Shown here: positions 1-12,590 of the stretch, in pieces
How the letters are laid out: each line of letters begins with the position of its first letter
How positions within the stretch are numbered: position 1 is the stretch's first letter
DNA from: Microbacterium sp. VKM Ac-2923
GTDB lineage: Bacteria > Actinomycetota > Actinomycetes > Actinomycetales > Microbacteriaceae
Reading direction: 5' to 3'
Assembly: GCF_022815605.1 (NCBI RefSeq)
Contig: NZ_JALGRP010000001.1
Span: 529,743 to 593,742, forward strand
Length of the DNA stretch: 64,000 nt
Program-made: the position numbers and the translations under genes
The notes under the pieces: generated by a model
What the model saw: the letters and a program-made list of their open reading frames with translations, nothing else
Told to the model about the DNA's origin: nothing
The model's database searches: none

Positions 1-54
1 CAGCTGCGTGCTCAGCGAGGGTTCCCGCCGGCATACGGCGCACGGCATCCGGGG

Positions 55-1296
55 TCAGACGAACGCACTCATCCCGGTGATGTCGCGGCCCAGGAGGAGC
101 GCCTGGACGCTTTCGGTGCCCTCGTAGGTGTGGATGGCCTCGATGTCGGCCATGTGCTGCATGACGCCGTTCTCGAGCAGGATGCCGTTGCCGCCGAGCA
201 GATCGCGGGCGATCGCCGCCACGCGTCGCGCGGCACGGGTGTTGTGGTACTTCGCGAGTGATGCCTGCGTGGGCCGGAGCCCGCCGCTGGTCTCGAGGTC
301 CGCCAAGCGCCGGCAGTACAGCTGCATGGCGGTGAGCTCGTCGAGCATCTGAGCCAGTCGCTCCTGCACCATCTGGAACGCAGCGAGCGGCTTCCCGAAC
401 TGCATGCGCTCGGTGGCATACGTCCGCGCGATCTCATAGCAGGCGGTCGCGTGCCCGAGCGCCGACCACGCGACACCCGACCGCGTGGCGTACAGCACCC
501 GCGAGGCATCCTTGAAGGTGTGCGATCCGGGCAGCACGGCATCCGCGGGAAGACGCAGGTCGTCCAAGGCGATGTGCGCTTGATGGATGCCGCGCAGCGA
601 CACCTTTCCAGTGATGACGGTGCCGACGTAGCCCGGGGTGTCCTGTTCGACGAGGAAGCAGCGGACCTTGCCGTGGTCGTCGCCGCCCTCGTTCTCGACG
701 CGGGCCCAGACGAAGGTGATGCCGCCGGACGCGCCGTTGCCGATCCACTTCTTCGTGCCGCTGAGTGACCAGCCCGCGTCGGTGCGGGTCGCGGTCGTCT
801 CGAGCGACACGGAGTCGGAGCCGTGGTCAGGCTCGGTGAGGGCGAAGGCGCCGAGCACCGTGCCGTCGGCCAGGGACCGCAGCCAGCGCTGCTGCTGCTC
901 GGGGGAGCCGAACAGAGCGAGGGTGCGCAGGGCGAGGCCGCCCTGCACGGCGAGGGCAGTCGCGAGCGAGCCGTCGTGCCGCGACACCTCCATGTTGACG
1001 AGACCGGCCGCCAGCGGCGACGTGTGCGGGAGGTCGGGATGCTCGATGCCGTCGGTGAAGAGCTCGAGCTCGCCCATGCGTTCGACCAGCTCGACGGGGT
1101 AGGTCGCGGCATCCCATTCGCCCTGCATCCGCGTGCCGACCTCATCGACGAATGCCTTGGCGCGGTCCCAGACGGTGCGATCGGCGTCGGGGATGTCGGC
1201 GAACACCGCGTAGTAGTCGGTGTCGCGGCGGCCCAGCAGGTCGTAGTGGGCGACGCGCTCTCCGGGGAGCGTGCGGGCATCGGCGTCGATGGTCAT
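55..1296 (-). CDS. Acyl-CoA dehydrogenase, glutaryl-CoA dehydrogenase-like
   Basis: Flavoenzyme of 413 aa expected to oxidise an acyl-CoA thioester and pass electrons to ETF. Seen: a helical N-terminal part, the FAD/substrate loop FALTEPDHGSD (residues 151-161) followed by KKWIGNG, and a C-terminal segment IHTYEGTESVQALLLGR. The Glu of TYEGT sits where glutaryl-CoA dehydrogenases carry the catalytic base, so that subfamily (lysine, tryptophan or aromatic catabolism) is the best guess; the exact substrate cannot be read. Length is normal for the family. ATG start at 1296. No partner genes such as ETF or CoA-transferase lie within the window, so the pathway is open. It is divergent from the YbaK-type gene. 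Confidence 0.9.
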   Translation of the reverse strand: MTIDADARTLPGERVAHYDLLGRRDTDYYAVFADIPDADRTVWDRAKAFVDEVGTRMQGEWDAATYPVELVERMGELELFTDGIEHPDLPHTSPLAAGLVNMEVSRHDGSLATALAVQGGLALRTLALFGSPEQQQRWLRSLADGTVLGAFALTEPDHGSDSVSLETTATRTDAGWSLSGTKKWIGNGASGGITFVWARVENEGGDDHGKVRCFLVEQDTPGYVGTVITGKVSLRGIHQAHIALDDLRLPADAVLPGSHTFKDASRVLYATRSGVAWSALGHATACYEIARTYATERMQFGKPLAAFQMVQERLAQMLDELTAMQLYCRRLADLETSGGLRPTQASLAKYHNTRAARRVAAIARDLLGGNGILLENGVMQHMADIEAIHTYEGTESVQALLLGRDITGMSAFV

Positions 1297-1372
1297 GGTC
1301 CCCAGTATCGCGCATATTGGGACTGAGTGTCACTGGTGCGGCGAGTTCGGTGGGAGCCGTCGTCGTCGGGTC

Positions 1373-1503
1373 GGGTGTCCAGGACGCCCGGACGTCGTTG
1401 TGGGGTGGCGCGCGGCGTTGGGTGTCCGGGACGCCCGGAGGTTTTCGCGAGGTGGCGCGCGGCGTTGGGTGTCCAGGACACCCGGACGTCTTCGTGGGGC
1501 GTC
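1373..1503. repeat. 47-bp tandem repeat, two full copies plus a partial third
   Basis: Units begin at 1373, 1420 and 1467, each starting GGGTGTCC(A/G)GGAC(G/A)CCCGGA and ending GGTGGCGCGCGGCGTT; the third is cut after about 37 bp. The head of each unit is itself palindromic (GGGTGTCC/GGACACCC). It fills most of the gap between the divergent acyl-CoA dehydrogenase and the YbaK-like gene. The same GTGTC/GACAC theme recurs at 2141-2195 and 51102-51150. Confidence 0.8.
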
Positions 1504-1589
1504 CGGATGTTGTGGACGCTGGCGCAGGGAACGTGAACGGGGTCCGGGGCCGAGGACGACCCGGATGCCGGGCGGGTAGGGTCACGGGC

Positions 1590-2132
1590 GTGAGCGCGCT
1601 GACCTTCCTCCCCGCCGTCGACCATCCCGAGCTCCTCGCCGCGCCCGTCGCCGCCGCGATCGATCGCCTGCCTTCGGACATCGCCGCGCGCATAGAGGTC
1701 GCCGAGGTCGACCCAGCCCTGGCCGATACCGCGGCATTCTGCGCGGCCTACGGTCAGAGCCTCGACATCTCGGCCAACTGCCTCGTGGTGCAGGGCACGC
1801 GCGGCGCCGACGTCCGCACCGCCGCCTGCCTCGCCCTCGCCACGACCCGCCTCGACGTGAACGGAGCGGTGCGGAAGCTGCTCGACGCGCGGAAAGCCAC
1901 GTTCGCGCCGATGGACGACGCCGTGTCGCAGACAGGCATGGAGTACGGCGGCATCACACCCTTCGGCATCCCGGACGACTGGCGACTGCTGCTGGACGCC
2001 CGCGTTGCTGCTCTGCCGCGGGTCATCGTGGGCGCCGGAATCCGCGGCGCGAAGCTCTTCCTCCCGGGCGAGGTGCTGGCATCCCTTCCCGGGGCCGAGA
2101 TCGTGGAGGGTTTGGCCAAGCCCGCGGCGTGA
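1590..2132 (+). CDS. YbaK/EbsC-family aminoacyl-tRNA deacylase-like protein
   Basis: Protein of 180 aa with the YbaK/prolyl-tRNA editing fold. Members hydrolyse misacylated tRNAs such as Cys-tRNA(Pro) in trans. Seen: CLVVQGTRGADVRTAACLAL near residue 60, a KLLDARKATFAP stretch where the family has its conserved Lys, and the family-typical GMEYGGITPFGIPDDW segment. GTG at 1590 is chosen because translation upstream runs through the 47-bp tandem repeat and has no family similarity. Substrate specificity cannot be read from the sequence. Faces the TetR gene across a hairpin region. Confidence 0.85.
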   Translation: MSALTFLPAVDHPELLAAPVAAAIDRLPSDIAARIEVAEVDPALADTAAFCAAYGQSLDISANCLVVQGTRGADVRTAACLALATTRLDVNGAVRKLLDARKATFAPMDDAVSQTGMEYGGITPFGIPDDWRLLLDARVAALPRVIVGAGIRGAKLFLPGEVLASLPGAEIVEGLAKPAA

Positions 2133-2140
2133 GCAGCGCC

Positions 2141-2195
2141 GAGTGTCCACGACACCCGGACGATATTTCACAACGTCCGGGTGTTACGGACACTC
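2141..2195. terminator. Inverted repeat between convergent genes, probable bidirectional terminator
   Basis: Arms at 2141-2162 and 2174-2195 pair at 19 of 22 positions around an 11-nt AT-rich loop. It begins 9 bp after the YbaK-like stop. No T-run follows, which is usual in this GC range. Each arm contains the GTGTC-n3-GACAC theme also found at 51102-51150, so it may be a dispersed repeat rather than only a terminator. Confidence 0.6.
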
Positions 2196-2257
2196 AGCTG
2201 GCGAGGGTGACACCGACCGCGCCGGGGCTGCATCGGGCACGTGCCGGCCCGCGTCAG

Positions 2258-2412
2258 CCGTAGAGGTCCCGCGCGGCCGCGCCGCCGCGGCACGCGTCTG
2301 CCGCGCGCCAGTGCCGCCGCCGCACGCGTCAGCCGCGCGCCAGTGCCGCCGCATGCGTCCGCCGCGCGCCGATGCCGCCGCACGCGTCCGCCGCAGAGGT
2401 CCCGCGCTGCAG
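2258..2412. repeat. GC-rich imperfect tandem repeat of about 29-32 bp
   Basis: Four imperfect copies of (A)CGCGTC-nGCCGCGCGCCAGTGCCGCCGC, with heads near 2292, 2324, 2353 and 2382. They are bracketed by two AGAGGTCCCGCG copies near 2260 and 2395. It lies downstream of the TetR stop and shows no coding signal. Confidence 0.6.
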
Positions 2413-2424
2413 CGGCAGCCCGCG

Positions 2425-3105
2425 TCAGTCGGGCAGGCTCGCGCGCAGGCGCCGGGTGACTTCGGCCGCGGGCATGCGGCGCGGGAAGGCCGCGACGATC
2501 AGGTCGTCGCCCGCGGCGTCGTCGCCGTCGGGGTGCACGCCGTAGCGGCGGAGGGCGTCGTCGAGGGCGCGACGCAGGACGGATGCCGGCACCCGCGCTC
2601 CGCGCATCAGCCGGCGCAGCACGTGGTTGTGCACCGCGGTGACGAGGGCGGCGAAGCCGACGGCATCCAGTGGGTCGAGACCGGGGAGTGCGTCGCGCAG
2701 GTACTGGTCGAAGAGGCGTTCGTAACGGAAGACCGTGACGATCTCGCGGTCGCGCAGGCCGGGGATCTCGCGCACGATCTTGTATCGGCGTCGTGCGAGC
2801 TCAGGGTCGGCGGCGAAGTGGCGGAACACGCGCACCGATGCCTCGCACACGGCCACCCAGGGATCGTCGTGCGGCTGCGAGAGGTAGGCGCGGGTCTCGG
2901 CGAGCAGCACCTCGTGGTCGGCGAAGACGACGTCTTCCTTACCGCCGAACTGACGGAAGAACGTCGAGCGCGACACCCCCGCGGCCTGGGCGATCTGCTC
3001 CACGGAGGTCTGGTCGTAGCCGTGCGCGACGAAGAGGTCGATCGCCGCGGCCACCACAGCCGTGCGACTCGAGGGGGCGGCGCTGTCGGTCACGATGCCG
3101 AGCAT
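2425..3105 (-). CDS. TetR/AcrR-family transcriptional regulator
   Basis: One-component repressor of 226 aa. Seen: an N-terminal HTH in the TetR pattern, IDLFVAHGYDQTSVEQIAQA then GVSRSTFFRQFGGKEDVV (about residues 22-60), and a C-terminal helical ligand-binding region with no recognisable specificity. ATG at 3105 is chosen because further upstream the frame is Arg/Pro-rich antisense-like sequence; GTG at 3093 is an alternative. The divergent neighbour is the FAD oxidoreductase at 3467, a plausible target. The intergenic region carries the four-half-site element at 3242-3304. Confidence 0.88.
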   Translation of the reverse strand: MLGIVTDSAAPSSRTAVVAAAIDLFVAHGYDQTSVEQIAQAAGVSRSTFFRQFGGKEDVVFADHEVLLAETRAYLSQPHDDPWVAVCEASVRVFRHFAADPELARRRYKIVREIPGLRDREIVTVFRYERLFDQYLRDALPGLDPLDAVGFAALVTAVHNHVLRRLMRGARVPASVLRRALDDALRRYGVHPDGDDAAGDDLIVAAFPRRMPAAEVTRRLRASLPD

Positions 3106-3241
3106 ATCCGCGGCCCGCGCACGGGGGCCGTGCGGGCGCGCGGTCCGGGTTCCGCGGTCGGGTGGGAGGGACCGGTGGGACGGAGGCGCGGTCGCCCGTC
3201 GACGTGGGCGTGGAGGCGGCGCGGCGGCTCGGCGGTGTCCC

Positions 3242-3304
3242 AGAAACGCTATTCGTGCGCATGAACGCGTTGCCGCGGCGTTTATCGCCACGAACGGCGT
3301 TTAT
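3242..3304. repeat. Four-half-site palindromic element, AAACGC type
   Basis: Two direct half-sites, AGAAACGC at 3242 and ATGAACGC at 3261 (19 bp apart), are followed by two inverted half-sites GCGTTTAT at 3278 and 3297 (19 bp apart). It lies in the 361-bp gap between the divergent TetR and FAD oxidoreductase genes. Sister elements with the same spacing lie at 47832, 48972, 62101, 62282 and 63049. Function unknown. Confidence 0.75.
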
Positions 3305-3466
3305 CGGCGAGCACATGGCGGCCGGGGCACGACGCGAGGCACGACGCGGGGCGACCGTCCGTGGGTGAACCGCGCGCATCGACCTGCGCGAGACCCCCCG
3401 CTAGACGATCCCCCCGGAGGAGGCAACCGGATGCCGCGTCGCCGTCGCCCGCGGTGGGATGGACGC

Positions 3467-4942
3467 ATGACCTCCCCCCTGTGGCACCGAGACCGGACCT
3501 CCGTCGCGACCCCGTTCGAGGCGGATGCGCGGCACGATGTCGTCATCGTCGGAGCGGGGATCACCGGCTTGTCGACCGCGGTGATGCTCGCCGAAGCGGG
3601 CGTCGATGTCGCCGTCGTCGACGCGGGCGACGTTGGCCAGGGGGCGACCGCGGCGTCGGTGGGAATGGCATCCCTTTTGCAGGGGACGACGCTGGCGGCA
3701 CTGCGGCGGCATCATCCGGCGGGACTCGTCCGCGCGTACGTCGACGCGAATCGCGCCGGCCAGGAGTGGCTCGCCGCGCGGGCGGGCGGGGCGGCCGACC
3801 GCCGCACGGCGTTCACCTTCGGGCGGGGGCTCGCCACTGACGTCGCGCTCGACGCGGTGCGCGACGCGGCCCGTGAGGCCGGTCTGCCCGTTCGCGAAGA
3901 CGCGCCCGGCGACCTCGGCGGGCACACCCCCGTGCGTGCCCTCGCCCTCGACGACCAGCTCGCACTCGATCCCGTGCTGCTCGCGACCACGCTCGCGCGC
4001 GCGGCGGTCGACGCCGGCGCAAAGATCCACACGGGCGTTCGCGTAAGGGATGTGCGGGCGCTGCCGAGCGGTCGCATCGACACCGACCACGGCACCCTCT
4101 TCGGCGACACCGTCGTGCTCGCCACCGGCACCCCCCTCACGCGACGCGGTCTCTACGACCTGAAGACGCGCGCCCTGCGCTCGTGGGCGATCGCCTTCGA
4201 GATGGAGGGGGATGCCGAGACCCCGGGCGGTATGTGGAGCGAGGTCGGCGCCGGCGGACGCAGCGTCGTGGCGGCGCCGTCGTCGTTCGGGCGTTCCGTG
4301 CTCATCGTCACGGGGGCGCGGCATCCGGTGGGCTCGGCTCGGTCGGAGGTCGCGCTCGCCGAGGAGTTGGCCGCGTGGGCGCGGCGGACGCTCCCCGTCG
4401 GCGCCGAGATCGCGCGGTGGTCTGGCCAGGACTATCAGTCGCACAACCTGGTGCCGTTCGTCGGAGGGATGCCGCGCGGCCTCGGCCGTCTGCGCTTCGC
4501 CACGGGATACGCGGGGTGGGGTCTGGCCAACGGCCCGGCGGCCGCGATGCGCCTCACGGACGAGATCCGCGGCGTTTCGCGCGGTGCTCGGCCGCGGTGG
4601 ATGCGCACGATCGGAACGCGCATGACCGTGCCCGCCGACCTCGGCCGGGGGATCGGGGAAGCGAGCCGACGGGTCGGAGTGGCGGCGGGGGCGCTGTCCG
4701 CGGCCGTTCCGGCGCCGGCGAAGCGTCCGGCGGAGGGCGCGGGCGTCGTGGCTCGGCAGGGGCTGCGCACCGCCGCCGTGTCGACCATCGACGGCCGGAC
4801 CCGCGTCGTCGTCGCCCCGGCTCCGCTCACCTGGAATGACGCCGAACGCTCCTGGGACAGCCCGGTCGACGGCTCGCGCTACGCACCCGACGGCTTGCGG
4901 CTCGAGGGCGCGGCCTCGGCGGATCTCCCGTCGGCGGGCTGA
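3467..4942 (+). CDS. FAD-dependent oxidoreductase (DAO family) with degenerate Rieske-like C-terminus
   Basis: Protein of 491 aa. Residues about 24-52 form a dinucleotide-binding fold (VVIVGAGITGLSTAVMLAEA) and the body matches glycine oxidase/DadA-like FAD oxidoreductases, ending with FATGYAGWGLANGPAAAMRL. In relatives the C-terminus is a Rieske [2Fe-2S] domain. Here the framework LTWNDAERSWDSPVDGSRYA and the following DGLRLEGAA are kept, but the expected CPCHGSR reads SPVDGSR and the earlier Cys-x-His ligands read as Ala/Pro, so no cluster can bind. ATG at 3467 chosen; ATG at 3431 would add a basic 12-residue lead. Substrate unknown. Confidence 0.85.
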   Translation: MTSPLWHRDRTSVATPFEADARHDVVIVGAGITGLSTAVMLAEAGVDVAVVDAGDVGQGATAASVGMASLLQGTTLAALRRHHPAGLVRAYVDANRAGQEWLAARAGGAADRRTAFTFGRGLATDVALDAVRDAAREAGLPVREDAPGDLGGHTPVRALALDDQLALDPVLLATTLARAAVDAGAKIHTGVRVRDVRALPSGRIDTDHGTLFGDTVVLATGTPLTRRGLYDLKTRALRSWAIAFEMEGDAETPGGMWSEVGAGGRSVVAAPSSFGRSVLIVTGARHPVGSARSEVALAEELAAWARRTLPVGAEIARWSGQDYQSHNLVPFVGGMPRGLGRLRFATGYAGWGLANGPAAAMRLTDEIRGVSRGARPRWMRTIGTRMTVPADLGRGIGEASRRVGVAAGALSAAVPAPAKRPAEGAGVVARQGLRTAAVSTIDGRTRVVVAPAPLTWNDAERSWDSPVDGSRYAPDGLRLEGAASADLPSAG

Positions 4943-5195
4943 GGGACGGGATGCCGCGGCGTGCTGTGCAGCCGACGGAAGCATCGGGCTGAGGCACGGG
5001 ATATCGCGGCGCGGTGCGGTGGCGTCGGCGGTGGCGGGTCGAGGGACGGTATGCCGCGGCGTGCTGCGGCGGCGTCGGTGGTGGCGGGTGGAGGGACGGG
5101 ATCCGCGGCGTGTTGTCGGTCGTCGGAAGCGGCGGGCTGGATCGGTATGCCGCGGCGTGCTGCGTCGGATGGCTGAGGGTCGGGATGCCGCGGCG
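4941..5195. repeat. 50-bp period imperfect tandem repeat array, about six units
   Basis: Copies of GAGGGACGGGATGCCGCGGC-GTGCTG begin near 4941, 4991, 5041, 5091, 5137 and 5174; the first four are exactly 50 bp apart. Sequence between the cores is also related (CGTCGGnGGTGGCGGGT), so this is a degenerating minisatellite and not a CRISPR. It fills most of the gap between the FAD oxidoreductase and the LysE gene; the remaining ~130 bp shows nothing. Confidence 0.75.
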
Positions 5196-5328
5196 CGCTT
5201 GTGGCATCGTCGAGGGTGGCGGGCGCAGGCCGCGAGACGGCGTCTGACGAGACTGCTGCAGCCGGCAGCTGAAATGTCACCGAGACGCAGTCTCGGCCGG
5301 GTCCGCCGTCGGAGCGCCGCCGCCCGCC

Positions 5329-5961
5329 TCAGCTCTTCGCGCCGGTGAACGCGAGCGCGCCGCCGAGACCGATCATCATGACGCCGCCCGTCGCGGAGAG
5401 CGTCGAGATGCGCTTCGGCGAGCGGGCGAACCACGTGCGGGCCGTGCCCGCGGCGAGTGCCCACACGCTGTCGCAGGTCAGCGCGAGCACCTGGAAGATG
5501 AGGCCCAGCACGAGCAGCTGCATCCACACCGCCCCCGCGCGCGGGTCGACGAACTGCGGCAGCACGGCGACGAAGAAGGCGATGGTCTTGGGGTTCGTGA
5601 CGCCCACGATGAAGCCCTGGCGAAGGAGCGTCCACGACGACGCGGGGGCGGTCGCGGCCCCGGCGACGTGCGCGTGGCGATGGCGGATCGCCTGGATGCC
5701 GAGCCACACGAGGTAGATCGCGCCGACGATCTTCAGCACGGTGAAGGCGACGACGGAGGATGCCACGATCGCGCCGACCCCGAACGCGACGGCGAGGACC
5801 GCGGGCACGGTGCCGAGGGCGTTGCCGACGACGCTGAGCACACCCGCGCGGCGGCCGAGGGCGATCGACCGACCGATGACGAACAGCACGCTGGGACCCG
5901 GGATGACGATGATGACGACCGACGCGGCGACGAAGGCTGCGAGGTGCTCGATCGGAGGCAT
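5329..5961 (-). CDS. LysE/RhtB-family amino acid exporter
   Basis: Integral membrane protein of 210 aa with about six hydrophobic segments. Seen: the family N-terminal signature VIIVIPGPSVLFVIGRSIALG (first 20 residues of it at about 17-36), a central FIVGVTNPKTIAFFVAVLPQ typical of LysE/RhtB, and a terminal GLGGALAF helix. Members export amino acids or derivatives by proton antiport. ATG at 5961. No linked regulator; substrate undetermined. Confidence 0.9.
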   Translation of the reverse strand: MPPIEHLAAFVAASVVIIVIPGPSVLFVIGRSIALGRRAGVLSVVGNALGTVPAVLAVAFGVGAIVASSVVAFTVLKIVGAIYLVWLGIQAIRHRHAHVAGAATAPASSWTLLRQGFIVGVTNPKTIAFFVAVLPQFVDPRAGAVWMQLLVLGLIFQVLALTCDSVWALAAGTARTWFARSPKRISTLSATGGVMMIGLGGALAFTGAKS

Positions 5962-6041
5962 GCGTGCAGCGTACTGCCCTCGCGTTTCACGAAGTTCCCG
6001 CGCCTCGAGCCCGCCCGCGCGGTGCGCTCCGGCGCGTACTC

Positions 6042-6126
6042 CGCGTGAGGGGTCAAAAATTGTCGCCTAGCGGCCTCGCTGAGCGACAAGAATTGACCTC
6101 TCACGCGCCTGCTCGACCCCCACGCG
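6042..6126. repeat. Long inverted repeat with an additional third arm
   Basis: Arms of about 24 bp at 6043-6066 (GCGTGAGGGGTCAAAAATTG then TCGC) and 6083-6106 pair almost completely around a 16-nt loop that can itself fold. A further copy of the right-arm end (GACCCCCACGCG) ends at 6126, with its CACGCG exactly 19 bp after the first. It lies downstream of the nitrate reductase electron-transfer gene and upstream of lysE, so it may also act as a terminator. Confidence 0.65.
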
Positions 6127-6156
6127 CATGGCTGACCTCGCGCGCCTGCCCGACCC

Positions 6157-7737
6157 TCAGGCCGGCACGGCCTCCCGCGCGAGCAGCTCGCTGATTCGCC
6201 CGACGCAGCCGCCGCAGCCGGTGCCGGCGCGGGTCGACGCCTTCACGCACGCCACGGTGGGTTCCCCGGCGGCGACAGCCTCGCGGATCGCGCCCGCGCT
6301 CACGCCGTTGCACCAGCACACCGTGGCATCCGCGGCGAACGGGTCGGCCACGACGGCCATCCCGGTGTCGGGGGCGTCGAGCCGCAGCAACGACGAGCGG
6401 TCGGCGGGCAGCTCGGAGCCCCGCTCGAACAGAAGGGTCAGCTCCGCGCCGGTGCGCGGCATCCCGACCGCGACGAAGCCGGTCAGCACCCCGTCGACCG
6501 TGACGAGCTTGACGTATGCCCCGCGGGCAGGGTCGGCCCAGAGCGTGACCTGGGGGCCGTGGCATCCGGGGGCGTGGGAGAAGGGGTCGGCGTCGACCGC
6601 GCCTCCGGCGACGACGTCGATGCCCTCGGCCTTCAGCATCACGACCCCGGGGCGTTCGACGGGCGCCGGCACGGCTGCCCCGGCAGAGGACACCCCCGAC
6701 GACAGCAGCGCCGCCAGCCGGTCGGCCTGCCGCCAGCCCGGGCCGATGAGCCCGCTCGGGCCTCCCGGCACACGGCCGTCGGCGCCGGCGTCGGCCGGAT
6801 CGGCGACGTGGGCGCAGTCGCCGATGGCGAAGACGTGCGGGTCGGTCCACGAGCGCGATGCCCCGTCGACCAGCACACCGCTCGAGATGGCGAGACCGGC
6901 GAGGGATGCCACCTCGGTGCGTGCCGCGACCCCGCACGACAGTACGAGCAGGTCGCCCGCGAGCACCTTGCCGTCGGCGCAGACGAGGCCGTCGAACCAC
7001 GCCTGACCGTGGTCGTCGTAGCGCTGCACGATGCTCTCCGCGCGGGCGTGGTGCATCATCTCGACGCCGACGGTCGTGGCGGCGGCGGCGAGCACGCGTC
7101 CGCCGTTCTCGTCGAGCGTGCGGTTCATCGGGGCGGCGGAGTGGTACGCCACCATCACCTCGGCGCCGGCTTCGGCGGCGGCCAGCGCCAGCTCCATGCC
7201 GAGCACCCCCGCGCCGAGCACGACGATGCGCTGACCGGCCGACACCGCTGCGCGCACGTGCTCCGCGTCGGCGAGATCTCGGAGCGCCACGACCCCGCGG
7301 GGGAGCGGCGCCGAACCGTGGTCGAGCTGGTCGGGAACCCCCGGCCGCGCCGCGCGGTGCCGCTGCGCCCGCTCGAGACCGGCGAGGGTGGGAACGTTCG
7401 CGCGCGCCCCGGTCGCGAGTACGAGCCGGTCATAGGGGATCCGGATGCCGTCGTGCAGCCGCACGACCCGACGGTCGCGGTCGACGCCGACCACCGTCAT
7501 CCCGAGCACGAACCGCACGCCGGCTTCTTCGGCGACGAGACGGTCGCCCATGTCGAGGCCGTCGCGGTCGGCCCGGCCGACGGCGTACTCGGCGAGCAGC
7601 ACGCGGTTGTAGACGTCGTGCGTCTCGGCGCCGATGACCGTCAGGTCGATGCGCCCATCGCGCACCGCGGGCAGGAGTCCCTCGATCAGCCGTGCCCCGA
7701 CGGGGCCGTAACCCACCAGCACCACACGCTCAGACAT
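6157..7737 (-). CDS. FAD-dependent NAD(P)H electron-transfer subunit of assimilatory nitrate reductase (NasB-like)
   Basis: Protein of 526 aa. Seen: an N-terminal FAD fold (VVLVGYGPVGARLIEGLLPA), a second Rossmann fold near residue 150 (RIVVLGAGVLGMELALAAAE), the FAD-closing motif VFAIGDCAHVADP, and a C-terminal BFD-like [2Fe-2S] module with CWCNGV...CVKASTRAGTGCGGC. This matches the N-terminal half of nitrite reductase large subunits plus a BFD domain but lacks the siroheme reductase half. It most likely feeds NAD(P)H electrons to the overlapping nitrate reductase. ATG at 7737 overlaps the upstream stop by 8 bp. Confidence 0.85.
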   Translation of the reverse strand: MSERVVLVGYGPVGARLIEGLLPAVRDGRIDLTVIGAETHDVYNRVLLAEYAVGRADRDGLDMGDRLVAEEAGVRFVLGMTVVGVDRDRRVVRLHDGIRIPYDRLVLATGARANVPTLAGLERAQRHRAARPGVPDQLDHGSAPLPRGVVALRDLADAEHVRAAVSAGQRIVVLGAGVLGMELALAAAEAGAEVMVAYHSAAPMNRTLDENGGRVLAAAATTVGVEMMHHARAESIVQRYDDHGQAWFDGLVCADGKVLAGDLLVLSCGVAARTEVASLAGLAISSGVLVDGASRSWTDPHVFAIGDCAHVADPADAGADGRVPGGPSGLIGPGWRQADRLAALLSSGVSSAGAAVPAPVERPGVVMLKAEGIDVVAGGAVDADPFSHAPGCHGPQVTLWADPARGAYVKLVTVDGVLTGFVAVGMPRTGAELTLLFERGSELPADRSSLLRLDAPDTGMAVVADPFAADATVCWCNGVSAGAIREAVAAGEPTVACVKASTRAGTGCGGCVGRISELLAREAVPA

Positions 7738-9970
7738 GGATCTCCTCTTCGGCGGTGCTCGGCTGGTCGAACGTTTCACTCGCTCGGACGGAACCTGCGG
7801 ACGTGGATGCCGCGGGCGAGGCCCCCGGGAGCCCCGACGCGACGACGGGCCCGACCCCCGGATGCTCCGACACCACCACGGGCCCGTGTTCCGTGGCTGC
7901 GACGGCGGGCACAGCGGCATCCGGAGCCACCCGCACCCGCGTGCGCTTGAACTCCGGCATGGCCGACGTCGGGTCGACGATCGCCTCGGTGAGGCGGTTG
8001 GCGCACTCGTCGCCGGCGTAGTGGAACGGCAGGAACACGGTGTCGTGGCGGATGTCGGTCGTCACGCTCGCCCGCGCCCGCACGGTGCCGCGCTCGTTCG
8101 ACACGGCGACGAGCGCACCTTCGCGGATGCCGAGGCGAGAGGCCGTCGCCGGGTGGATCTCGAGCCGCGCCTCGGGGCGGGCGCTGTTCAGCTCAGCGAC
8201 GCGGCGGGTCTGGGTGCCCGACTGGTACTGCTGCAGATAGCGGCCGGTGACGAGGGTGAGGTCGCCGCCGCGGTCGGTGGGCGCCGGGGGAGTGGCATCG
8301 ACCGGTACGAGCTTGGCGCGCCCATCGGCGTGGGCGAAACGTCGGGTGAACGGACGCGGGGTGCTTTCTGAGCGGTACGGCCAGTACGCCTCGATGCCGG
8401 TGTCGAGCAGGGCGTGCGACAGGCCAGAGTAATCGGCGATGCCGCCCTCCGACGCGCGGGCGAGCTCGTCGAACACTTCTGAAGGATCGATCGACCAGGT
8501 GGATGCCGCGCCCAGGCGCCGCGCGATCTCGGCCATGATCCACAGCTCGCTGCGGGTGCCGTCGGGCCCGGGCAGAGCCTGGCGGCGGCGGATGACCCGG
8601 CCCTCGAGCGAGGTCATGGTGCCCTCCTCCTCGGCCCACTGCAGCACGGGCAGCACGATGTCGGCCAGAGCGGCGGTCTCGGAGAGGAAGAAGTCGCAGA
8701 CGATGAGGGTGTCGAGCGCCGCGAGGTTCGCGCGCACGGCTTCGACGTCCGGCGCCGAAACGACGACGTTGGAGCCGGCGACCAGCAGGGTCTTCACCGG
8801 GCCGCCGAGTTCTGCGAGGAGCGCGGTGGCCGGGATGCCGGCATCCGGAAGCTCGTCCGGGTTGACGCCCCAGACGCCCGCGACGTGCCGACGCGCCTCG
8901 GGGTCGCGGATCGAGCGGTAACCGGGCAGCTGGTCGGCCTTCTGGCCGTGCTCGCGTCCGCCCTGGCCGTTGCCCTGTCCGGTGAGGGTGCCGTAGCCCG
9001 AGCCCTCGCGGCCGACGAGGCCGAGCACGAGGGCGAGGTTGATCGCGGCGGTCGCGGTCGCGGTGCCGTCGACGTGTTGTTCGACGCCGCGTCCGGTGAG
9101 GATGTACGCGCGGCCCGCGGCGAGGCGGCGGGCGGTGGCCTTGAGGTCGGCAACCGGGACGCCGGTCGTCGCGGAGGTCCGCTCCGGCCACCACTGCGCG
9201 ACGCTGCGCCGTAGGGCATCGAAGCCGTTCGTCCGGTCCTCTATATAGGCGCGGTCCGCGAGGCCTTCGGAGAGGGCGATGTGCGTGAGGCCGAGCAGCA
9301 GCGGAAGATCGGTGCCGGGGGCCGCCTGCAGGTGGGTGCCGGCGCTGTCTTCGGTGAGGCGCGCGGTGGCCGAGCGACGCGGGTCGACGACGATCAGGCC
9401 GCCGGCGGCGCGGGCTCCGGCGAGGTGCGCGAGGAACGGCGGCATGGTCGCGGCGACGTTCGAGCCGAGCAGCAGGATGGTCTCGGCGTCATCGAGGTCG
9501 GTGACGGGGAAGGGCAGGCCTCGGTCCATGCCGAACGCCCGATTGGATGCCGCGGCCGCCGACGACATGCAGAACCGGCCGTTGTAGTCGATGCGCGAGG
9601 TGCCGAGGGCGACGCGGGCGAACTTGCCGAGCTGGTAGGCCTTCTCGTTGGTGAGTCCGCCGCCGCCGAAGATGGCGTTGGCGTCGGGTCCGTGCGCGGC
9701 CTTCGTGTTGCGGAACGCCGCGGCGACGGCATCCAGAGCGTCGTTCCAGGTGGTCTCGGCGAGGGTGCCGTCGGAGCGCCGCATCAGCGGCATCCGGAGT
9801 CGGTGGGGGGATGCCAGGAGCTCCGCCGACGTCCAGCCCTTGGCACAGAGCCCTCCCCGGTTGGTGGGGAAGTCGCGGCCGGCGACCGTGGTCTCACCCT
9901 CGTGGGTGACGGTCATGGCGCACTGCAGCGCGCAGTAGGGGCAGTGGGTGTCGGCGGAGCTCATGGTCAT
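7730..9970 (-). CDS. Assimilatory nitrate reductase catalytic subunit (molybdopterin)
   Basis: Cytoplasmic enzyme of 746 aa reducing nitrate to nitrite. Seen: an N-terminal [4Fe-4S] site with Cys10, Cys13, Cys17 and Cys42 (HCPYCALQC...GGLCAKGW), NGRFCMSS where Cys134 is the expected molybdenum ligand, molybdopterin-binding GSNV and QGNGQGGREHGQ segments, and a C-terminal dinucleotide-binding domain. About 65 extra Ala/Val/Pro-rich residues follow the last domain. The start overlaps the transporter stop by one base (TGATG); a second in-frame ATG lies 6 bp in. No signal peptide, which fits assimilation and not respiration. Confidence 0.92.
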   Translation of the reverse strand: MTMSSADTHCPYCALQCAMTVTHEGETTVAGRDFPTNRGGLCAKGWTSAELLASPHRLRMPLMRRSDGTLAETTWNDALDAVAAAFRNTKAAHGPDANAIFGGGGLTNEKAYQLGKFARVALGTSRIDYNGRFCMSSAAAASNRAFGMDRGLPFPVTDLDDAETILLLGSNVAATMPPFLAHLAGARAAGGLIVVDPRRSATARLTEDSAGTHLQAAPGTDLPLLLGLTHIALSEGLADRAYIEDRTNGFDALRRSVAQWWPERTSATTGVPVADLKATARRLAAGRAYILTGRGVEQHVDGTATATAAINLALVLGLVGREGSGYGTLTGQGNGQGGREHGQKADQLPGYRSIRDPEARRHVAGVWGVNPDELPDAGIPATALLAELGGPVKTLLVAGSNVVVSAPDVEAVRANLAALDTLIVCDFFLSETAALADIVLPVLQWAEEEGTMTSLEGRVIRRRQALPGPDGTRSELWIMAEIARRLGAASTWSIDPSEVFDELARASEGGIADYSGLSHALLDTGIEAYWPYRSESTPRPFTRRFAHADGRAKLVPVDATPPAPTDRGGDLTLVTGRYLQQYQSGTQTRRVAELNSARPEARLEIHPATASRLGIREGALVAVSNERGTVRARASVTTDIRHDTVFLPFHYAGDECANRLTEAIVDPTSAMPEFKRTRVRVAPDAAVPAVAATEHGPVVVSEHPGVGPVVASGLPGASPAASTSAGSVRASETFDQPSTAEEEIHV

Positions 9971-11370
9971 CAGATCCGGGTGCCGGTCTTCTTCGCCATC
10001 CGCAGGTAGACGCCGGCGGTGAGGGCGAGGAAGGCGACGTAGGCCAGGGCGAACCAGCCGAGGGCCGGGGTGTACGAGCCGAACGTCGTCTTCGAGAAGC
10101 CGAGCAGCTGCGGGATGAAGAACCCGCCGTACGCTCCGATCGCCGAGACGAGGCCGAGGGCGGCGGCGGCCTTGCGCTGCGCGCCGATGCCGTTGTTGGA
10201 GCGGAGGGCGAAGATCGTCGGAATCATGCGGTACGTCGCACCGTTGCCCATGCCGGCGGCGGCGAACAGCACCAGGAAGCAGAGCAGGAAGACCGCGAAG
10301 TTCTGCATCGGCAGGGTCAGGATGACGCCCAGGATGCCGAGACCCATCACCGTGAACGCGCCCATCGTGATGACGGTACCGCCGAAGCGGTCGGCGAGCT
10401 TGCCGCCGTAGGGGCGGGCGAGCGACCCGACGAGGGCACCCAGGAAGGCGAGGGTGACGGTGGCGGTGCCGATCGCGATCCCCTTGAAGTCGGGGAACGT
10501 GTCGGCGAGCAGCTTCGGGAAGACGCCGGCGAAGCCGATGAACGAGCCGAAGGTGCCGATGTAGAGGACGGCCATGATCCACAGGTGCGGCTCTTTCAGA
10601 GCGGCGAGGGATGCCGTGATGTCGGCCTTCGCGCTGGAGAGGTTGTCCATGCGGAAGTACGCGCCGACCATGGCGACGATGATGAGCGGCACCCAGATGA
10701 GACCCGCGAGCGGCAGGTTGAGGGTGGCGGCGGCGCCGACGGTGATGACGATCGGCACGACGAACTGCGCGACCGAGGCGCCGAGGTTGCCGCCGGCGGC
10801 GTTGAGTCCGAGCGCGTACCCCTTCTGGGCCGCGGGGTAGAAGAACGTGATGTTCGCCATCGAGCTGGCGAAGTTGCCGCCACCGAAGCCGGCGAACGCG
10901 GCGATCAGGAGCAGGATGCCGAACGGAGTTGCGGGGTTCGATACCGCGATGGCGAGGCCGATGCTCGGGATGAGCAGGAGTCCTGCGGAGACGATCGTCC
11001 AGTTGCGGCCGCCGAAGCGCGGAACCATGAACGTATAGGGAATGCGCAGCGTCGCGCCGACGAGGCTCGGCATCGAGATCAGCCAGAAGATCTCACCGGT
11101 CGAGAGCTGGAAGCCCGCCGCGGGCAGCGACACGACGACGACCGACCACAGCTGCCAGACGACGAACCCGAGGAACTCGGCGAAGATCGACCACCGCAGG
11201 TTGCGGGAGGCGATGGCCTTGCCCTCTTTCGCCCACTGAGTGGCGTTCTCGGGGTTCCAGTTGTCGATCCAACGGCCGGGGCGGTGGACGAGCTCGGCGC
11301 TCTGTGTGCCTGCAGTCGTTGCGGCGGGCGGCGCCGCTGCGGCTTCGGGGCGCGGGTCGGTGACGGTCAC
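9970..11370 (-). CDS. MFS nitrate/nitrite transporter (NarK/NasA-like)
   Basis: Membrane protein of 466 aa with about 12 hydrophobic segments. Seen: the NNP-type signature regions AFAGFGGGNFASSMANITFF and AAAALGLVSAIGAYGGFFIP (Gly-rich motifs of nitrate/nitrite porters), and a soluble Ala/Thr-rich N-terminal ~60 residues. It imports nitrate or exchanges nitrate and nitrite for the reductase in the same operon. GTG start at 11370 with GGAGG six bases upstream. First gene of the minus-strand narK-nasC-nasB operon. Confidence 0.92.
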   Translation of the reverse strand: MTVTDPRPEAAAAPPAATTAGTQSAELVHRPGRWIDNWNPENATQWAKEGKAIASRNLRWSIFAEFLGFVVWQLWSVVVVSLPAAGFQLSTGEIFWLISMPSLVGATLRIPYTFMVPRFGGRNWTIVSAGLLLIPSIGLAIAVSNPATPFGILLLIAAFAGFGGGNFASSMANITFFYPAAQKGYALGLNAAGGNLGASVAQFVVPIVITVGAAATLNLPLAGLIWVPLIIVAMVGAYFRMDNLSSAKADITASLAALKEPHLWIMAVLYIGTFGSFIGFAGVFPKLLADTFPDFKGIAIGTATVTLAFLGALVGSLARPYGGKLADRFGGTVITMGAFTVMGLGILGVILTLPMQNFAVFLLCFLVLFAAAGMGNGATYRMIPTIFALRSNNGIGAQRKAAAALGLVSAIGAYGGFFIPQLLGFSKTTFGSYTPALGWFALAYVAFLALTAGVYLRMAKKTGTRI

Positions 11371-11448
11371 GGGTTCCTCCGGAAGGCGATGTGGGGAGGT
11401 GCAGCGCCCCGCATGGGTGGGGCGTGGTCGCCAGCGTAGGGAGGAGGG

Positions 11449-11495
11449 GTTTCCCGGGACCGCGTGCCCGGGGGCGGGGAGGTAACGGTTGTTTC
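11449..11495 (-). promoter_or_regulatory. Candidate nitrogen-control boxes upstream of the nitrate operon
   Basis: Reading the minus strand: GAAAC (11495-11491), GTTAC (11486-11482) and, 33 bp on, GAAAC (11453-11449) inside GGGAAACCCCTCC followed by CTACGC. The nirB upstream region at 51247-51290 has the same elements. GAAAC and GTnAC half-sites are the vocabulary of actinobacterial GlnR, but the spacing is not canonical, so the regulator is only suggested. Confidence 0.4.
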
Positions 11496-11537
11496 ACCCG
11501 CGGCGGGGGAGGGGGAGAGGGGGAGTTTACGTGGGCG

Positions 11538-12590
11538 TTACATGTCGTGGTTCGGGGCTACGTCCTCCGCATCATTCTCATCTGGGGAAGCTACCGACTG
11601 ATTCAGCAGGCCAAAGGGGACGTGAACGCTTGGTACATCGTTCTGGGCAGCGTCCAGATGAGTGCGCTGATCCTCGAAGAAAATGTGCGGGCGTAGCACA
11701 CGGAGAACTTTGGCCTTCTCGATGCCTCCAAGGAAGAACGCATCATTCACGCGTAGCCCGTGCGCTCGCAGCGACCGGATCACTCGCTCGTGAGAAGGCG
11801 CGTTTCGGGCTGTGACGATCGCGACGTGCACGCGCCTGTTGTAGGTGCGATCGGCGATTACAAGTGACTCCTCAATATCTTGAATTCGGTTGATGTCCCG
11901 AAGAAGCTTTGCGAGGCGGCCCTCTCCGATCGGGACCTCGACGTTATCCACCTCGTGGGAATGGAAGGCGGCCAACCCTAACGCCTGCATCACCTGCTCT
12001 GATGAATCGTCCGCGATGACGCCGTCGAAGTCGAAGGCGATGCGAAGGTCGCCAGACCCCGTCGCACCGGCTGTCGCACTCGCCGCAGGGGTCCCGATCA
12101 CCTGGCCAGCGGCGAACCCCAATTCGAGCGCCTCGCGCACGTCTTGCTCATTCGCCGACAGGAACAAGGACATGTCGAGTGCTTCCATGAACCTGTGCGG
12201 AGAGCGGCCCTGCATGAATATAGCTCGCGTGATCGGGAGCCGATGCGCTTCTATCGACTTCATCACCCTAAGGCCAGTCTCCGGGTCGTTCCTTGACAGA
12301 ACGATGACTTCAACAAGCGGCTTCTCTGCATCCAGATCATTTAACGATAAAAGTCGCTGGATGAACGGAAACGCTACACCCGGCCGAAGTGTGTCGTTCA
12401 GATGTTCTTCTTGGTACTCTCTGTACCCATCCTCGCCGAGGTCCACGAACACGGCGTGCGACTCTTCGAGGTTGAATAGCGCACTGGAAGCGACGCCGAT
12501 GACCAGCATCTTCTTGAGGTCGTATGGCACGGCGGATCCTCTCAGATCAATCATATTTGCGAAGCTTGCCGGAGCAGCCTCGATCTGCAT
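11538..12590 (-). CDS. 5'-nucleotidase, cytosolic cN-I family
   Basis: Protein of 350 aa of the 5_nucleotid family, which dephosphorylates nucleoside monophosphates. Seen: LVIGVASSALFNLEESHAVF near the N-terminus, FDFDGVIADDSSEQ with the HAD-type DxD, IVTARNAPSHERV, and FFLGGIEKAKVLRVLRPHIF followed by FEDQ. These cover the family landmarks. ATG at 12590 kept; ATGs at residue 13 or 28 are alternatives. It lies 85 bp downstream of the 666-aa HEPN-like gene on the same strand, in lower-GC DNA with none of the GGATGCC heptamers common elsewhere, so it is probably part of that acquired operon rather than housekeeping salvage. Confidence 0.82.
   Translation of the reverse strand: MQIEAAPASFANMIDLRGSAVPYDLKKMLVIGVASSALFNLEESHAVFVDLGEDGYREYQEEHLNDTLRPGVAFPFIQRLLSLNDLDAEKPLVEVIVLSRNDPETGLRVMKSIEAHRLPITRAIFMQGRSPHRFMEALDMSLFLSANEQDVREALELGFAAGQVIGTPAASATAGATGSGDLRIAFDFDGVIADDSSEQVMQALGLAAFHSHEVDNVEVPIGEGRLAKLLRDINRIQDIEESLVIADRTYNRRVHVAIVTARNAPSHERVIRSLRAHGLRVNDAFFLGGIEKAKVLRVLRPHIFFEDQRTHLDAAQNDVPSVHVPFGLLNQSVASPDENDAEDVAPNHDM

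Follow-up and report, generated by a model that had tools for sequence, protein, structure and literature searches.

Among described systems, YhfW of Bacillus subtilis is given in an excerpt of PMC7317962 as a predicted oxidoreductase, FAD-linked and of unknown function, with a C-terminal Rieske domain. A Rieske-like domain without metal-binding residues is described for TEF5 (TEF5/PSB33/LIL8), the mutant of which has a phenotype (excerpt of PMC12164590). A first-pass annotation of the DNA analysed here had likened its cluster-free domain to NirD. The analogy holds in so far as two cluster residues are substituted in NirD of Bacillus bataviensis, but elsewhere NirD/NasG is a Rieske-type 2Fe-2S protein (excerpt of PMC3475470). 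In the literature on degenerate Rieske domains, NirD and DAO-Rieske proteins we found few proteins in which the iron-sulfur cluster is lost and the domain retained, and we recognised no paper on a ligand-less DAO-Rieske fusion. Orf1, the N-formimidoyl fortimicin A synthase, has a DAO fold with about 100 extra C-terminal residues; it gave a nearly full-length fold match and was rejected as a precedent, its C-terminal domain being a twisted four-helix bundle and not a Rieske domain (excerpt of PMC10156733).

The window, which is the whole stretch of 64,000 nucleotides that was analysed, contains the following features, in which residue p of the flavoenzyme begins at position 3467+3(p-1), Met1 being counted:

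58-1296, - strand: acyl-CoA dehydrogenase neighbour (below curated NCBIfam cut-off)
2428..3111, - strand: TetR-family regulator, transcribed divergently from the flavoenzyme gene
3467..4942, + strand: 491-aa DAO-fold flavoprotein with a ligand-less Rieske-type tail (translation, Pfam, fold model)
3467..4606, + strand: DAO / FAD-dependent oxidoreductase domain, residues ~1-380, GxGxxG intact (Pfam PF01266, fold match)
3665..3667, + strand: Met67; Lys in ligand-bearing relatives; aligned with glycine oxidase M49
4268..4270, + strand: Val268; Arg in ligand-bearing relatives; aligned with glycine oxidase Y246
4514..4516, + strand: Gly350; Lys in actinobacterial ligand-bearing relatives; aligned with glycine oxidase R329
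4736..4924, + strand: Rieske-type tail, residues ~424-486; framework WNDAERSWD...GSRY...DG...EG kept
4817..4825, + strand: Rieske box 1 remnant Pro451-Ala452-Pro453; Ala in the place of Cys, His lost by deletion
4859..4870, + strand: Rieske box 2 remnant Ser465-Pro-Val-Asp468, replacing Cys-Pro-Leu-His
5329-5961, - strand: RhtB/LysE-type exporter neighbour (below curated NCBIfam cut-off)
6157-7740, - strand: 527-aa protein resembling the first part of NirB (below curated NCBIfam cut-off)
7730-9970, - strand: NasC-type nitrate reductase neighbour (below curated NCBIfam cut-off)

The PF01266 match covers residues 24-365 (E 1.2e-32, Pfam), and the predicted fold is nearest to those of glycine oxidase (ThiO) and sarcosine oxidase, of the GR2 fold (best Z 36.4, rmsd 2.8, 344 residues aligned to 4ysh_A); the glycine oxidase matches stop before the tail. 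The tail itself is predicted to form strands, with pLDDT block means of 80-92 over residues 421-490. The strand pattern is predicted alike in ligand-less and ligand-bearing tails, but because the input alignment contained ligand-bearing sequences, the predicted fold does not count as separate support for a Rieske fold of the tail. At positions 4929-5200, which span the stop codon of the flavoenzyme gene and the sequence beyond it, lie GC-rich direct repeats, several of them spaced 50 nt; their core, GGGATGCCGCGGCGTGCTG, has four matches there with at most two mismatches and six in the window with at most three, for 0.17 expected. Positions 1-12000 of the window gave no match to Rfam.

Loss of the four cluster ligands and its distribution

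All four residues that hold the cluster in relatives are gone from the window protein. In box 1, which reads V-C-P-H-L-G-G-V-L-x-W in the alignment of relatives and V-A-P-A-P-L-T-W here, Cys is replaced by Ala and His is lost with a deletion of three residues; in box 2, C-P-L-H-x-S has become S-P-V-D-G-S, with Ser in place of Cys and Asp in place of His. Ligand-bearing relatives align with the window protein right through the tail. The translation of 3467-4942 (+ strand) and this alignment bear out the annotation's central claim, that the Rieske framework is kept while every cluster ligand has been lost; its placing of the domain at 4790-4942 does fall on the tail but starts too late, since the homologous region begins near 4736. 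Two ligand-bearing relatives, about 51% identical, were searched with Pfam, and both show the Rieske family PF00355 (E 3.1e-7 and 6.4e-8). The family is absent from the window protein taken whole at E <= 1 and from three ligand-less tails, the window's included, at E <= 10 in a search whose HMMER filters discard most weak matches. A Rieske domain without the four ligands is not expected to hold a [2Fe-2S] cluster, and by this established chemistry the cluster would be absent from the ligand-less protein. Since the window protein fails the test for a cluster, it should not be named "Rieske iron-sulfur protein".

The loss is common to a whole clade. A close form of the protein (E <= 1e-180) occurs in 22 of 366 Microbacterium genomes, one copy being truncated by a contig end, and each of the 21 proteins that include the tail has none of the four ligands. 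The position of the first Cys is taken by Ala in 17 of them and by Thr in four, and Ser465 and Asp468 are invariant. Named records with this form belong to M. testaceum, M. enclense and M. hydrothermale, together with further Microbacterium strains. All four ligands are kept in the 128 other Microbacterium proteins with a tail that was read: 140 other genomes of the genus match at E <= 1e-60 (295 searched), 130 of these were taken into the comparison, and two tails could not be read, in L247, where an in-frame stop closes the open frame, and in L252, at a contig end. A further 85 distinct proteins beyond these Microbacterium sets also keep all four (85/85), the family-level search having given 64 matches of which 34 were left out of the comparison. 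Intermediates that keep part of the four ligands are absent from the 21 clade proteins, the 128 other Microbacterium proteins and the 85 further ones. One in-frame stop lies within the flavoenzyme match of each of two ligand-bearing genomes, L265 and L247, which may be pseudogenes or sequence errors.

Cys and His retained in orthologues of the same genus had been named beforehand as the sign of a strain-specific loss or a sequence error. Such orthologues exist in number, as the 128 proteins above attest, but the loss is neither strain-specific nor a sequence error, because it is common to the whole clade (21/21 with tail). The check proposed in the annotation, whether the ligand-less form is conserved in related species, has a positive outcome. 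It is also more than a product of chance, given its presence in every clade tail, the invariance of Ser465 and Asp468 and the use of two synonymous codons for Ser465. A motif search of a phylum sample yielded no independent ligand loss elsewhere, with a pattern that needs the exact framework and misses TTN codons and diverged tails: WNDAEx[ST]WD precedes a codon with a first base other than T in one of 346 genomes, the window's own, and precedes T[ACG]N in 12 of the 346, all 12 listed matches reading TGC or TGT.

Changes in the flavin domain

As judged from the alignments, the flavin domain is changed alongside the ligand loss, a feature that the earlier sequence-only annotation did not mention and that is new here. 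Across the flavin domain and linker (residues 5-423), 113 columns are conserved in at least 85% of ligand-bearing proteins, and the clade has other residues at 17 of them. Position 67 is Met in 23 of 23 clade rows versus Lys in 212 of 215 ligand-bearing rows, two being gapped there, and position 268 is Val, Met or Leu versus Arg in 214 of 215. A profile alignment pairs Lys67, Arg268, Gly285 and Lys350 with M49, Y246, M261 and R329 of glycine oxidase, M261 being presumably a site residue; all four are replaced in the clade, while Asp322 (glycine oxidase R302) and Ser266 (H244) are kept. The clade's Met67 matches glycine oxidase M49 and stands in an SVGM or AAGM motif. In glycine oxidase, R302, Y246, H244 and R329 contact the substrate carboxylate (excerpt of PMC9463521), and the glycine site of Orf1 comprises A54, G55, A56 and M57 (excerpt of PMC10156733). 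Replaced columns are enriched at the glycine oxidase site (5/7, p 7.6e-4) with a list compiled in part after the changes had been seen; the figures are 4/6 (p 0.0045) with columns defined from the papers alone and 2/4 (p 0.11) with the four residues of PMC9463521 only.

Which of these residues accompany the cluster is suggested by eight distant ligand-bearing DAO-Rieske relatives, picked for diversity from 80 matching plasmid records (Rhodococcus, Natrinema, Dolichospermum, Sinorhizobium, Paenibacillus, Gemmatirosa, Stenotrophomonas and Halobaculum). The CHCH ligands are present in all eight, Lys67 in seven and Arg268 in eight, versus Lys350 in three and Arg290 in one. This pattern makes Lys67 and Arg268 credible cluster partners, which Lys350 and Arg290 are not, and the replacements at these last two positions need not be linked to cluster loss. 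The haloarchaeal and Gemmatimonadota relatives (L292, L298 and L296) keep the ligands and have Gly at the position of Lys350, which indicates that Lys350 is not tied to the cluster in general. The gene tree gives no order for the changes in the flavin domain relative to the loss of the ligands.

With both redox-relevant sites altered, and conserved cationic residues lost from the presumed flavin site, the main rival to our reading is that the protein has become a pseudoenzyme, devoid of redox catalysis and serving as a sensor or scaffold that binds flavin or a ligand. We consider this unlikely. The GxGxxG and ATG-type sequences, which we take to be FAD motifs, are kept together with Asp322, and the flavin domain evolves under a constraint close to that of its relatives, the median dN/dS being 0.163 within the ligand-less clade and 0.145 between ligand-bearing proteins paired at 80-95% identity.

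Descent, neighbourhood and selection

The ligand-less proteins are monophyletic (support 1.0) in a flavin-domain tree of 233 sequences, and this gene tree thus gives the ligand loss one origin. The clade is nested within ligand-bearing Microbacterium proteins, through nodes of 0.93 and 0.91, a weak node of 0.35, and then nodes of 1.0 and 0.98; three proteins cut before the tail (L022, L075 and L109) and three partial ones (L247, L252 and L255) were excluded from the tree, codon counts and dN/dS. A search at E <= 1e-8 gives one homologue in each of the 22 clade genomes, none of which has a ligand-bearing copy beside the ligand-less one. In all 22 ligand-less genomes the flavoenzyme gene has a TetR gene no more than 2.1 kb away, and in 36 of 49 ligand-bearing genomes it has one nearby (at most 300 bases away in 35 and 1.8 kb in one); in the other 13 the TetR gene is distant or on another contig. 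These distances rest on the best TetR matches listed, and the 49 ligand-bearing genomes with both places are no census. When ligand-bearing loci are read with flanks of 1.5 kb, 4 of 11 include TetR, and with flanks of 8 kb all 6 of 6 do; TetR is no universal marker of the flavoenzyme locus. Common descent with the DAO-Rieske proteins is supported by the nested tree position and by the TetR neighbour shared with the 36 ligand-bearing genomes, and the window gene probably descends in place from the two-domain DAO-Rieske flavoenzyme of many actinobacteria.

The other neighbours differ between the groups. Among 15 ligand-less loci holding most of the flavoenzyme gene, some with short flanks, a LysE/RhtB-type exporter is present at 12 and a NirB-like gene (at least 80% identity) at 11, and genes that by our own reading of the sequence are putative sucC and sucD occur in five each of six ligand-bearing Microbacterium loci. 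A link from neighbourhood to function was rejected: of the 12 largest gene families listed, from crude gene calling in 11 ligand-less and six ligand-bearing Microbacterium loci, TetR alone besides the flavoenzyme is common to both groups. This difference, together with the very long stem of the clade (0.57 in the flavin-domain tree), the identity of only about 51% to the nearest relatives and the 13 ligand-bearing genomes in which TetR does not adjoin, could be read as displacement of the original gene by a diverged paralogue or by a gene from another lineage. We regard such a replacement as quite improbable, given that the clade groups inside Microbacterium and not with another genus, that the TetR gene is shared as described and that no second copy exists in the 22 genomes. 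In a set of 29 loci with both TetR and the flavoenzyme gene (19 ligand-less and 10 ligand-bearing), TetR identity is 75.5% between the groups versus 74.1% within the ligand-bearing set, and flavin-domain identity is 51.0% versus 62.2%; the corresponding mean tree distances are 0.53 versus 0.51 for TetR and 1.28 versus 0.66 for the flavin domain. The almost complete lack of excess distance in TetR, set against the excess in the flavin domain, indicates that the burst of change took place in the flavoenzyme gene and not in its neighbour.

The gene is dispensable, since 13 of the 36 genomes that carry a TetR at least 86% identical to that of the clade are without it; the flavoenzyme gene is present in 22 and a piece of it at a contig end in one, and one of the 13 genomes without it (G055) is only 87% complete. 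A 51-nt scar (86% identity) is left in one of the 13. In two related genomes without the flavoenzyme, about 1.9 kb separate the exporter from TetR (L272:1824-3617 and L273:1708-3655), and the slot in L272 is filled by a frame that, by our own reading of the sequence, presumably encodes a subtilase-like protease. The absences, the scar and the occupied slot would suit early decay, with a drifting domain in a gene on its way out, and the start of decay had been offered by the first-pass annotation as one reading of the tail. The tail is, however, under purifying selection. Its median dN/dS is 0.117 within the clade versus 0.099 in the ligand-bearing pairs, and it is as conserved within the clade as the flavin domain (median identity 87% and 85%); between the groups, tail identity falls to 54% from 79% within the ligand-bearing set, and flavin-domain identity to 51% from 60%. 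None of the 21 complete ligand-less genes contains a stop, and Pro453, Ser465, Val467 and Asp468 are invariant (n=21) with synonymous variation at the codons of the first three. These results disfavour decay, which we hold to be very improbable. That the tail binds another metal or ligand through its new Ser-Pro-Val-Asp loop, as the invariant Ser465 and Asp468 might suggest, is barely credible, given that the loop brings a single new carboxylate (Asp458, Glu460 and Asp464 being present in ligand-bearing relatives too) and that box 1 supplies Pro-Ala/Thr-Pro only.

Proposed change of function and comparison with known systems

On balance, we propose that a cluster-coupled flavoenzyme has become cluster-free, that its flavin site has been altered and that its tail is kept as a structural domain. 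The ancestor would have been a two-domain DAO-Rieske flavoenzyme that changed rapidly along the branch leading to the Microbacterium testaceum group. On that branch the four residues holding the [2Fe-2S] cluster would have gone from the tail, and several conserved residues aligned with the substrate site of glycine oxidase from the flavin domain, after which the ligand-less protein would have settled under purifying selection. The loss of the ligands, taken with Rieske chemistry, implies that electrons likely no longer flow from the flavin to an internal cluster. FAD would most likely still be bound, and the reduced flavin would probably pass its electrons straight to oxygen or to a soluble acceptor. 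The blank tail has probably been retained for folding, for assembly or to cover the flavin site, and a structural role for it is plausible. We found no biochemistry on the ligand-less protein in the literature, and the acceptor, substrate and activity suggested here are putative. A more specific scenario can be hypothesised, in which a cluster-coupled two-domain dehydrogenase became a cluster-free oxidase by a coordinated change of both domains, with Lys67 and Arg268 lost from the flavin pocket, an SVGM motif like that of glycine oxidase regained and the emptied Rieske domain turned into a fixed structural lid; we advance it tentatively, as a possibility that we would sooner expect to fail in some part than to hold in full.

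If the proposed change is real, the intact sister enzymes of the same genus would make it a natural experiment in which the requirements that an internal iron-sulfur relay places on the flavin site can be studied. Natural orthologues could separate the roles of the cluster, of Lys67 and Arg268 and of the tail, because sister species still carry the intact form, the whole clade shares a loss that the gene tree traces to one origin, and the flavin domain has changed too. Work on DAO-Rieske enzymes would gain a handle on which residues accompany the cluster, and the clade would offer a natural case of an enzyme that drops a cofactor without decay of its gene.

The protein shares with DAO-Rieske fusions of the YhfW type the same order of two domains and the WNDAE.SWD framework, and it is nested in the tree of such proteins; the window clade differs from them in the loss of all four ligands and the replacement of Lys67 and Arg268. 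The YhfW-type label for this lineage rests on the description of YhfW, which itself lies outside the alignment. With respect to glycine oxidase, the carboxylate residues R302, Y246 and R329 correspond to Asp322, Val268 and Gly350 in the window protein, which argues that a glycine-type carboxylate site has not been restored. TEF5 and NirD are separate proteins, TEF5 being membrane-anchored, whereas here the blank domain and its flavin domain form one fused protein; and, unlike in those two cases, an intact form of the same protein survives in sister species.
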